This document shows, piece after piece, positions 12,650 to 24,444 of a DNA stretch of 40,601 bases; position 1 is the stretch's first letter; every line of letters begins with the position of its first letter. Source of the DNA: an uncultured Thiotrichaceae bacterium (lineage in GTDB: Bacteria; Pseudomonadota; Gammaproteobacteria; Thiotrichales; Thiotrichaceae); contig CACVAY010000034.1 of the NCBI GenBank assembly GCA_902727985.1, positions 1-40,601 of the forward strand, written 5' to 3'. Both the position numbers and the translations under genes were made by a program. Below the pieces are notes generated by a model. It did not search any database. It was not told where the DNA came from and saw nothing but the letters and a program-made list of their open reading frames with translations.

Positions 12650-12760
12650 ATCGTGAAGTCTATGTGAATTAGATGAAAAAGTGATGATGGTTTATACTGT
12701 ATTTTATGCGGAATATTACTGGCTTTATTATCTTTTTTTATGCTTTCAAAGAAATTTTAT

Positions 12761-12788
12761 TTGACAGATAAAAAAATTGCTCTATTAT
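12761..12788 (+). promoter_or_regulatory. Near-consensus sigma-70 promoter upstream of rtcB
   Basis: A perfect -35 TTGACA (12761-12766), a 16-base spacer and -10 TATTAT (12783-12788). Transcription would start near 12795 and run through the leader ORF and hairpins towards rtcB. Confidence 0.7.
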
Positions 12789-12852
12789 TTTTACGCAAGA
12801 TTTCGGCGCAAAACAGGCGTCATTTTATCAAACATTTTTTTGGAGAAGCTGA

Positions 12853-12885
12853 ATGCAGCAATTAAAACAGTACATAACGAACTAG
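12853..12885 (+). CDS. Possible 10-residue leader peptide upstream of rtcB
   Basis: ATG at 12853 preceded by GGAGAA (12842-12847), a well-placed ribosome-binding site. It encodes MQQLKQYITN and stops at TAG 12883-12885, which lies in the outer AACTAG stem of the downstream structure. A ribosome at the stop codon would cover segment 1 (12887-12894). Three of ten codons are Gln, with Lys, Tyr and Asn codons as well. The size and position suit a regulatory leader peptide; translation is unproven. Confidence 0.45.
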   Translation: MQQLKQYITN

Positions 12886-12967
12886 TCTCCCAGCAAACCG
12901 CTGGGGGACACATTTGTGTCACCAGCGTTTTGTAGCTAGTTTGGTCTGATTGACTGTAGCTTTTCAT

Positions 12968-13002
12968 AAAACCCTGGTGGCATCTGTCTCCAGGGTTTTT
13001 TT
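12968..13002 (+). terminator. Intrinsic terminator just upstream of rtcB
   Basis: AAAACCCTGG (12968-12977) and CCAGGGTTTT (12990-12999) form a perfect 10-bp stem with a 12-base loop, and the T-run continues to 13002. It ends 37 bases before the rtcB ATG, so rtcB must be transcribed by read-through or from a weak promoter between. Confidence 0.85.
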
Positions 13003-13039
13003 ATGCCTGTGAGAAAAATAATGTTAAGAGAAACAGGCC

Positions 13040-14236
13040 ATGCCAATACAAAAACAACTCAACAAAGGGAAAGTACCTGTCAAAATATTCACCAATGATG
13101 TGGATAGTCAGGCACTTACCCAACTCGGTAATATTTCACAATTGCCATTTATTCATCATCATATTGCCGCAATGCCTGATGTGCATTTAGGCAAAGGCGC
13201 AACCGTAGGCTCCGTGATTCCAACCAAAGGGGCGATTATTCCTGCGGCGGTTGGCGTGGATATCGGTTGTGGCATGAATGCTGTACGTCTGTCATTGAAA
13301 GCCCATGATTTGCCCGATAGTTTGCGGCGTGTGCGTTCAGCCATTGAATCGAAAGTGCCTGTTGGTTTCAATATGCATGAAAGAACAAAAGTGAAAGCTT
13401 CAACCCTGAAAGCGATGGATAAACCGCTGGATGTGATTTTAGATAAGCATCCGGGGTTAACCAAAATGATGCGTAATTTCCATCGAGCATGGGGACGCCA
13501 GTTAGCGACGTTGGGAGGTGGCAATCATTTTATCGAATTGTGTCTGGATGAAAATGACGATGTTTGGATTATGTTGCATTCAGGTAGTCGTGGTATCGGA
13601 AATGTGATGGGACGCTACTTCATCAATCTCGCGAAAAAAGATATGGGCAATCAGCTTGGTCATTTGCCCGATAAAGACTTGGCGTACTTTACAGAAGGAG
13701 CTCAGCACTTTGATGATTATGTCGAAGCGGTTAGTTGGGCACAGGATTACGCGTTGATCAATCGGCGCGAAATGATGCGCTTGGTCGTTGATGCCTTGCA
13801 GGATTATTTGCCGCCATTTGTGACCACGAAGGAAGCGATTAACTGTCATCACAACTATGTGCAAAAGGAAACGCATTATGGTGCTGAGGTGTATGTGACG
13901 CGTAAAGGCGCGATACGTGCAGGCCATGAAGAACTGGGAATCATCCCGGGAAGCATGGGAGCAAAATCTTTTATTGTGCGTGGTAAAGGTAGCAAAGTTT
14001 CTTTCTGCTCTTGCTCACATGGAGCAGGGCGCAAGATGAGTCGAGCGCAGGCAAAACGGGAGTTTAATCGCTTTGATCTCGAAAGCATGACCGAAGGTGT
14101 GGAATGCCGAAAGGATAAAGGTGTCGTGGATGAAATCCCCGCAGCATACAAAGACATTGATAAGGTCATGCAAGATCAGCACGATCTCGTTGAAGTGGTG
14201 CATACGCTGAAACAAGTTGTCTGCGTCAAAGGTTAA
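13040..14236 (+). CDS. rtcB: RNA-splicing ligase RtcB
   Basis: Joins RNA 3'-phosphate (or 2',3'-cyclic phosphate) and 5'-OH ends with GTP and Mn2+; used in RNA repair in the cytosol. 398 residues, close to the E. coli enzyme. Metal and guanylate-site motifs are DVHLGKGATVGSV, DIGCGM (C77), GGGNHFIE (H163), LHSGSRG (H180), INCHHNYV (H270, H271) and the guanylylated His in SHGAGRKMSR (H327). No rtcA, rtcR or archease gene is adjacent. The ribosome-binding site is weak and the gene stands directly behind an intrinsic terminator, which suggests conditional expression. Confidence 0.96.
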   Translation: MPIQKQLNKGKVPVKIFTNDVDSQALTQLGNISQLPFIHHHIAAMPDVHLGKGATVGSVIPTKGAIIPAAVGVDIGCGMNAVRLSLKAHDLPDSLRRVRSAIESKVPVGFNMHERTKVKASTLKAMDKPLDVILDKHPGLTKMMRNFHRAWGRQLATLGGGNHFIELCLDENDDVWIMLHSGSRGIGNVMGRYFINLAKKDMGNQLGHLPDKDLAYFTEGAQHFDDYVEAVSWAQDYALINRREMMRLVVDALQDYLPPFVTTKEAINCHHNYVQKETHYGAEVYVTRKGAIRAGHEELGIIPGSMGAKSFIVRGKGSKVSFCSCSHGAGRKMSRAQAKREFNRFDLESMTEGVECRKDKGVVDEIPAAYKDIDKVMQDQHDLVEVVHTLKQVVCVKG

Positions 14237-14452: not shown

Positions 14453-14662
14453 ATGCCCGAACGCATTCGCAATCATGTGGCTCGCTCTGCGTTATTACGC
14501 AAGGGTGGAGTCCATGAACGTAGCCGCTCCGCGAAACGGCAATCCGTAAAACGGGAACTGGAAGATGCTGTTTCCGATTATCTAAACCTTCATGATGATG
14601 AATACCAGAATGAAGAAACAGAAAAGGAGGAGGTCACCGAAAGGTGGCCTTTTTTTTGTTAA
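14453..14662 (+). CDS. Small basic protein, 69 residues, with an intrinsic terminator inside its 3' end
   Basis: The ATG at 14453 has an excellent ribosome-binding site (AAGGAG, 14441-14446). The N-terminal half is strongly basic (RNHVARSALLRKGG, then SRSAKRQSVKRE) and the C-terminal half acidic (DDEYQNEETEKEE), ending WPFFC. I do not recognise the family. The last codons contain a GAAA-capped hairpin followed by eight Ts (14650-14657), and the TAA at 14660-14662 lies beyond the T-run. A transcript ending there would have no stop codon, as known for arfA ribosome-rescue genes. The protein does not clearly match ArfA (no DPLF or KGKGSY motif), so only the gene architecture is similar. An unrelated nucleic-acid-binding protein is possible. 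Confidence 0.75.
   Translation: MPERIRNHVARSALLRKGGVHERSRSAKRQSVKRELEDAVSDYLNLHDDEYQNEETEKEEVTERWPFFC
14632..14657 (+). terminator. Terminator overlapping the 3' end of the 69-residue gene
   Basis: GGTCACC (14632-14638) pairs with GGTGGCC (14643-14649) with one T-G pair, capped by a GAAA tetraloop and followed by TTTTTTTT (14650-14657). A textbook intrinsic terminator, but inside the reading frame. Confidence 0.88.
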
Positions 14663-24247: not shown

Positions 24248-24377
24248 GCGCACGCAAATTTCGCAATATTATTTTCAATTGTTTTGCAGTTGTTAGCATA
24301 TTCTGAAAATTTGCAAACACATTAGCGTAATGAATAGATACTATTCGTTATTAATTCACACACATTTCGACACGATT

Positions 24378-24444
24378 AGCAGGGTGCCAGCAATGGTTGT
24401 TAATTGGGAAGTGTGGAGGCCTAACCCAAAAAATTAAGGAAATT
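24378..24444 (+). promoter_or_regulatory. Candidate S2-binding leader of rpsB
   Basis: The bases just upstream of rpsB read GCAGGGTGCCAGCAATGG, then GTGTGGAGGCCTAACCC, then the ribosome-binding site AAGGAA. GGTT (24395-24398) can pair with AACC (24423-24426), and GGGTGCC with parts of GGCCTAACCC. Gammaproteobacterial rpsB leaders are known to carry a conserved S2-responsive structure at this place. The match here is by position and overall look, not by alignment. Confidence 0.45.

Follow-up and report, generated by a model that had tools for sequence, protein, structure and literature searches.

A Probable Ribosome-Stall Attenuator Upstream of the RNA Ligase Gene rtcB, Conserved in Thiotrichales and Other Proteobacteria

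Introduction

The rtcB gene of Escherichia coli is controlled by RtcR with sigma-54. Attenuators of the trp/his type combine a leader ORF, alternative helices, and an intrinsic terminator. In Pseudomonas aeruginosa, armZ (PA5471) is preceded by PA5471.1, a leader of 13 residues that mediates induction by stalled ribosomes and for which a terminator switch has been proposed, as far as the accessible portions of the articles go (PMC12057347, PMC13041342, PMC3516279). The anti-repressor control exerted through this type of leader was called apparently unique to MexXY in the part of one article that was available (PMC12057347). In Acinetobacter, AbsR28 was mapped by Northern blotting and RACE as an RNA of ~180 nt between A1S_2838 and A1S_2839, and the available text reports its detection in all growth phases tested (PMC3976366).

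The window analyzed here is a stretch of 40,601 nucleotides (contig C34) from an uncultured Thiotrichaceae bacterium, whose genome of 3.54 Mb was assembled in 152 contigs (assembly 99.4% complete). The closest named relatives in an RtcB search were MAGs labelled Thiotrichaceae, Cocleimonas, and, in one case, Aquificaceae. The original prediction for this region was a leader-peptide attenuator controlling rtcB. The evidence presented below supports a ribosome-mediated transcription attenuator located before rtcB and, in some relatives, before a gene for a small basic protein, with a probability of roughly 0.86.

The rtcB Leader in the Window

A promoter, a Shine-Dalgarno sequence, a leader ORF, an anti-Shine-Dalgarno segment near the leader stop codon, and segments that can form two exclusive sets of helices can be read from the DNA in the following order.

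12761..12788, + strand: promoter (-35 TTGACA, 16-nt spacer, -10 TATTAT; 11 of 12 consensus positions)
12841..12852, + strand: segment A, leader Shine-Dalgarno (GGAGA) and partner of B (permutation test, RNAalifold)
12853..12885, + strand: leader ORF of 10 codons, MQQLKQYITN and stop, with the GGAGA Shine-Dalgarno at 12842-12846
12885..12894, + strand: segment B, anti-Shine-Dalgarno overlapping the leader stop codon
12899..12911, + strand: segment C, partner of B or D (covariation)
12916..12927, + strand: segment D, partner of C or E, containing CACCAGCG at 12920-12927
12958..12965, + strand: segment G, newly found, in the spacer before E and complementary to the leader start region
12968..12981, + strand: segment E, 5' arm of the intrinsic terminator and partner of D in the antiterminator
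12986..13002, + strand: segment F, 3' arm of the terminator with a run of 7 T
13040..14236, + strand: rtcB, RNA ligase, 398 aa (PF01139, E 2e-128)
14453..14662, + strand: gene for a small basic protein, possibly the second in the operon (ATG at 14453 behind AAGGAG)

The near-consensus promoter, the 10-codon ORF with a good ribosome-binding site, and the five pairing segments (1 to 5, corresponding to B, C, D, E, and F) were all found where they had been predicted, and the terminator does lie 37 bases before rtcB, as its T-run ends at 13002 and the gene starts at 13040. Transcription is expected to begin near 12795, which is an inference from the promoter. A separate strong promoter between 13003 and 13040 that supplied all rtcB transcripts would have refuted the prediction; a consensus scan of the + strand detected no promoter-like site there. 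The region from 12790 to 13040 folded better than all 200 shuffled versions (z -4.96).

The segments can be arranged in two sets of helices: an off set comprising A:B, C:D, and the terminator E:F, and an on set comprising B:C and the antiterminator D:E. By their base pairing, antiterminator and intrinsic terminator are mutually exclusive. Furthermore, GAGAAGCU (12843-12850) in the leader start region can pair with AGCUUUUC in segment G, and this pairing is present in the minimum-energy fold of the window. It is nested with the terminator and crosses D:E, from which it is inferred that it should favor the off state. The pairing scheme as first proposed was therefore right in its five segments and both states, and incomplete in that A:B and the start:G pairing had been missed. 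In Thiotrichales, segments A, C, and E resemble one another (GGAGAC-like), as do B, D, and F (GUCUCC-like); the relay looks as if it had grown by copying a Shine-Dalgarno/anti-Shine-Dalgarno pair.

Searches against Rfam returned a single match above threshold in the window, a t44 RNA (RF00127, 76 bits) located elsewhere, at 24339-24425. With E up to 1, His_leader was matched only weakly (21.5 bits; cut-off 49), which was taken as chance. An exact 18-base pattern was absent from the viral contigs searched.

The original prediction had also stated that RtcR is absent. This holds for the window, but not for the genome, in which one RtcR match was found on contig C49 beside a second rtcB and not adjacent to the rtcB of the window. 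The second gene (in the region C49:28090-31114) is 58% identical, has a divergent rtcR, and carries an exact match to the sigma-54 consensus, TGGCACGCCCGTTGCA, 36 bases before its ATG. A model of the leader element (R1, described below) gave no match at the second rtcB with E up to 10. One genome holds two rtcB genes, under what would be two different sensors.

Distribution and Linkage to rtcB

RtcB searches yielded 134 loci (30, 80, and 24 new ones), of which 84 were compared and 80 had distinct upstream DNA. Ten loci (L022-L031) and 40 loci of the 80-locus search were left out of the comparison; the 40 were mostly at most 64% identical, but included repeats (L048, L081, and L087), and visual inspection of 10 of them revealed no element. 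Among the 80 distinct rtcB loci, 47 could be read by eye as having the same arrangement upstream (41 delimited and six further read), while no such element was recognized by eye in the remaining 33. Element-bearing lineages, with labels as given, include Thiotrichales, Thioploca, Acinetobacter, Moraxella cuniculi, Hahella, Kangiellaceae, Alcanivoracaceae, Alteromonadaceae, Neisseriaceae, Chitinimonas, Massilia, Undibacterium, and others, and the span reaches Burkholderiales. The segment sequences vary between lineages with their complementarity preserved, e.g., GUCUCC / GGGAGAC / GUCAUCCGG / CCGGAUGGC in Thiothrix and GAUGUC / GGACAC / CGAAUGC / GCAUUCG in Acinetobacter. In Thiotrichales, segment B begins no more than a few bases from the leader stop codon, and in Acinetobacter about ten bases past it. 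The end of the T-run abuts the rtcB ATG in five loci of the Thiothrix type (L008-L012), so that the terminator arm would, by inference, also hold the Shine-Dalgarno of rtcB. A promoter also appears to be a regular part of the arrangement: the best match upstream of the leader averaged 9.9 of 12 positions in 39 loci, compared with 7.7 in shuffles, and reached at least 10 of 12 in 26 of them.

Two loci, one of them from Moraxella oblonga (L062 and L139), contained other leader ORFs before rtcB that did not fit the relay. Loci with PrfH-type rtcB were considered as possible relay homologues and rejected, as none of five read by eye contained the relay and two contained a leader ORF. L151 and L155 have leader ORFs with a good Shine-Dalgarno (MKNTLLPFADLFS and MQQLHLQYLFGI) ~200-300 bases before a PrfH-type rtcB2, also without a relay by eye.

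The linkage between element and gene was assessed with model R1, which was built from 19 rtcB loci, so that hits on these training loci are expected by construction. Of 63 genomes in the order, 38 contained an R1 match scoring at least 47 bits, and rtcB was directly behind the match in 35 of the 38. This count combines 32 of 35 genomes tested with three assigned by position (G000, G001, and G014), and includes an rtcB in two pieces (L183) and one cut by a contig end (L176). The three exceptions were a match at a contig end (L186) and two leaders without rtcB (L188 and L189), of which L189 still has the small basic gene. No gene other than rtcB gave an R1 match of at least 47 bits. The genome of the window scored 66.9 bits at the element, and its next best match reached 29.6 bits. 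Twelve of the weak R1 matches (at most 41 bits) were read and rejected, as they resembled ordinary terminators that follow other genes, 5S rRNA, or a tRNA.

With a strict pattern, relatives of the small basic protein, whose core is like RN-V-A...RKGG-H, were recognized behind rtcB in 20 of 80 loci: 16 among the 41 with the element and 4 among the remaining 39. At least one more, in L005, lies beyond that pattern. The protein had no Pfam or NCBIfam match above cut-off, the best being DUF601 with 19.1 bits against 24.1. A protein of 220-300 aa is also often encoded behind rtcB (L008, L010, L011, L013, L054, L065, L128, and others). It starts like MEKxQ..EI...CL..(R)T.F.Y..D.YA..LL..YI, and the first 60 aa of one representative gave no identification in Pfam or NCBIfam.

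Covariation and Pairing Specificity

Covariation of the stems in relatives had been proposed as a check on the prediction, and both mutually exclusive states were found to covary. In 19 Thiotrichales loci, 93.6% of the cells of the off state (C:D and E:F) were paired and 14 of 24 pairs showed double changes (six of 11 in C:D and eight of 13 in E:F); none of 500 shuffles reached either value. The on state (B:C and D:E) was paired in 94.4% of cells, with double changes in six of 17 pairs. This double-change count was reached by 19 of 500 shuffles, and neither the fraction of paired cells nor the covariation score was reached by any; slid versions paired in 33-56% of cells. Within the on state, B:C was paired in 93.4% of cells (double changes in two of eight pairs) and D:E in 95.3% (four of nine). 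RNAalifold, applied to nine Acinetobacter-type loci, returned A:B, C:D, and E:F.

Pairing specificity was examined by exchanging partners between loci. The pairing set comprised 52 elements, 45 of them nonredundant, and 44 were used for these permutations and for the folding described below; L184 was excluded from both because its terminator was apparently misplaced. In 25 Thiotrichales loci, the locus's own A:B, start:G, and D:E pairings each beat all 5000 permutations, and B:C gave p = 0.0016. The same tendency was observed in the 19 other loci for A:B (p < 0.0002), start:G (p = 0.0036), and D:E (p = 0.001). The control pairing start:D was no better than with permuted partners (p = 0.87), and C:E gave p = 0.04. 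A:B was weak in L068, L069, L072, and L078. Examples of start:G are UAAAUGUUCA with UGAACAUUUA (L188 and L192) and AAUACAUGC with GCAUGUAUU (L018 and L019).

Ribosome-Masked Folding

The regulatory logic was evaluated by folding transcripts cut before segment F under a ribosome mask and scoring the pairing of E with the stretch from the leader stop to E. In the 25 Thiotrichales loci, the median antiterminator pairing was 0.33 without a ribosome, 0.62 with the ribosome at codon 3, and 0.01 with the ribosome at the stop codon. In 23 of these loci, moving the ribosome from codon 3 to the stop lowered the pairing, and in none did it have the opposite effect; among the 19 other loci, an early ribosome gave more antiterminator in 14 and less in one. 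When the stop-to-E stretch was shuffled, the mean difference dropped from 0.47 to 0.03 in Thiotrichales and from 0.27 to 0.07 in the others. The direction was retained with three ribosome footprints (22, 23, and 22 of 25 Thiotrichales loci; 11, 14, and 15 of 19 others). Six Acinetobacter loci (L057, L058, L059, L063, L067, and L122) showed little or no difference between states, and L057 was slightly reversed.

In the window itself, antiterminator pairing was 0.93 both without a ribosome and at early codons. Depending on the footprint, it was 0.92, 0.03, or 0.31 at codon 9 and 0.00, 0.41, or 0.88 at the last codon; with the expected 5' end included, values of 0.12 and 0.73 were obtained. Because the stop value ranges from 0.00 to 0.88 by footprint against 0.93 without a ribosome, masked folding at equilibrium does not settle the logic for the window by itself. 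The predicted rule that a ribosome at the stop turns rtcB off and an early stall turns it on is reproduced by folding in most of the relatives, and remains footprint-dependent in the window.

Since the switch includes the leader Shine-Dalgarno among its segments, the element could instead sense ribosomes that have lost the 3' end of 16S rRNA, and with it the anti-Shine-Dalgarno. The A:B pairing and its permutation test are compatible with such a sensor, and truncated 16S rRNA is reportedly religated by RtcB, according to a statement cited in the accessible part of another article (PMC9741440). Against this, removing the ribosome altogether gave less antiterminator than placing it at codon 1 in 18 of the 25 Thiotrichales loci, which is the wrong direction (the same was seen in nine of the 19 others), and the window was neutral, with 0.93 in both states. 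A sensor of damaged 16S ends is thus quite unlikely.

The Leader ORF and Its Codons

A leader ORF of 9-14 codons was present in all 35 Thiotrichales loci with a strong R1 match, which include several near-duplicates, and leader ORFs were seen by eye in lineages outside Thiotrichales. The conservation of the small ORF, which was the other check proposed originally, is therefore met. Delimited loci contained ORFs of 8-18 codons, with a longer one in L128. The leader peptide diverges between relatives and its reading frame is preserved.

Codon content was examined in 42 nonredundant leaders out of 74 found, with L128 and L073 excluded beforehand and the start of L059 corrected by hand. Asn codons were enriched (61 compared with 35.4 in shuffles, z 4.8; 30 and 25 in the other two frames); Gln, Phe, and Arg were mildly elevated, and Glu, Lys, Tyr, and Cys were reduced. 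An attenuator that senses one uncharged tRNA in the manner of trp and his, most likely that for Asn, could account for this excess and for the presence of Asn in 37 of 42 leaders. It would also be in keeping with armZ, where leader codons 3-4 (Gln and Phe) matter for the cca effect according to the portion of the report available (PMC13041342). On the other hand, Asn is distributed across the ORF without a fixed position and is absent from five of 42 leaders, no long run of one codon occurs in the leaders listed, and rtcB does not encode a biosynthetic enzyme. Such a codon-specific sensor is considered unlikely, and the Asn bias is read here as tuning. The specific tRNA input that had been suggested for the leader was not established, as the peptide is unconserved and the Asn bias is all that was found.

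AbsR28 and the Drug Response of Acinetobacter

The Acinetobacter version of the element is filed in Rfam as the sRNA AbsR28 (RF02606), which scored above threshold in four of seven Acinetobacter loci (L057, L058, L059, and L122) and not in L061, L063, and L067. No RF02606 match was found in window positions 12700-13060 with E up to 1, and eight short sub-threshold matches in 370 genomes of the class were set aside on score. The published AbsR28 probe shares 81% identity with the L058 leader across 68 bases and contains a nine-codon ORF behind AAGGAGG; in L058, rtcB begins 37 bases past the terminator. A1S_2839 is inferred to be rtcB.

The element might be an independent AbsR28-like sRNA that acts on other mRNAs and is merely positioned before rtcB. 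Action in trans on tssM with Hfq and Mn2+ has been described, and deletion of absR28 had no polar effect on A1S_2839, according to the article as available, without the supporting supplement (PMC11796373); the unchanged A1S_2839 counts against the attenuator. An sRNA of this kind would nevertheless leave unexplained why a Shine-Dalgarno and ORF are preserved despite a divergent peptide, why the antiterminator state covaries, why rtcB lies directly behind the element in 35 of 38 strongly matching genomes, why the T-run reaches the rtcB start in L008-L012, and why a translation inhibitor strongly induces rtcB. This explanation is very unlikely, and an additional trans role of the terminated leader is not excluded.

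The induction was reported for tigecycline in A. baumannii, in which rtcB and the gene behind it were the most induced genes (252-fold), and the accessible text suggests a toxin-antitoxin or direct tRNA response as possible causes without settling on one (PMC7652931). From similarly partial sources, minocycline raises RtcB only 2.6-fold (PMC9741440), a table for a trmB mutant lists an RtcB family protein at 0.40 under a condition not known here (PMC10653896), and five of six clones of A. baylyi MGD6 evolved in LB carried mutations within or near AbsR28 (PMC11426457). The portions of the AbsR28 literature that were available contain no mention of "rtcB", and no link of an attenuator or of AbsR28 to rtcB was found in literature that largely left out subscription papers and preprints.

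RtcB is a Mn-dependent enzyme. A Mn2+ riboswitch regulating the ligase might be envisaged, as AbsR28 binds Mn2+ with a KD of about 6 uM and shows a changed cleavage pattern, according to the accessible part of the report (PMC11796373). A ligand switch would not need a preserved ORF with an anti-Shine-Dalgarno at its stop codon, and no loop motif common to the Thiotrichales and Acinetobacter alignments was apparent by eye; a riboswitch is scarcely credible.

Proposed Mechanism and Comparison with Known Systems

In the attenuator proposed here, a ribosome translating normally would reach the leader stop codon and cover B, C:D would form, and RNA polymerase would stop at E:F. If it stalled in the first codons, the ribosome would sit over the Shine-Dalgarno and start region and leave B free; B:C would then form, D would capture E, and rtcB would be read. 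Where ribosome-free folding lowers the antiterminator (18 of 25 and nine of 19 loci, not the window), the ribosome would have to start and then stall. The input is most likely general elongation stalling, caused by drugs or by damaged ribosomes or tRNAs; Asn and Gln codons may tune the response. RNA repair would be the output.

Conservation of the ORF, covariation of both states, and the lack of a competing promoter support the overall interpretation as an attenuator, whose mechanism is inferred from folding alone. The original prediction thus appears right in its main claim and reaches further than stated, to a conserved ribosome-stall attenuator of rtcB, with the reservation that no RNA data exist for the source organism. 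A bolder version, to which we give an even chance, is an AND gate widespread in proteobacteria: the Shine-Dalgarno and start codon of the leader would be held in helices (A:B and start:G) until a ribosome begins, and rtcB, in some lineages with an undescribed small basic partner protein, would be opened only by a ribosome that begins and then stalls. AbsR28 would then be the terminated product, and the 252-fold tigecycline induction would be read-through.

The switch may explain the strong induction of rtcB by translation-blocking drugs. If true, it would explain how an rtcB without an adjacent RtcR is turned on when RNA repair is needed and would give a testable cause for the strong published drug response. 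A filed "sRNA" would become the leader of the neighboring gene, so that deletion phenotypes would need rereading. Finally, the armZ-type leader would extend to a second RtcB branch across gamma- and betaproteobacteria.

Among the systems compared, AbsR28 of Acinetobacter resembles the window element as an rtcB leader with the same segment order, but is on record as a trans-acting sRNA. The RtcR/sigma-54 system has an output gene of the same family and works through a DNA-binding activator. The nearest known system is PA5471.1/armZ, which was compared from the literature without the P. aeruginosa sequence. Both have a short leader, an RtcB-like target gene, and a proposed terminator switch, whereas ArmZ is an anti-repressor encoded next to prfH, and the window RtcB does not meet the criterion of a PrfH-linked RtcB that marks armZ attenuators, as it scored 140 bits against TIGR03073, the PrfH-linked RtcB family, under the cut-off of 271.8. 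Induction by ribosome stalling, a trait of armZ, has a published counterpart in the tigecycline response of A. baumannii rtcB, outside the source organism. Attenuators of the trp/his type share the leader ORF, the alternative helices, and the intrinsic terminator. The rtcB element lacks the series of control codons for one amino acid by which they are recognized; it also differs from them in having an RNA-repair target and in engaging the Shine-Dalgarno and start region themselves in pairing. The mechanism is known by kind, and its setting and the added pairings are new.
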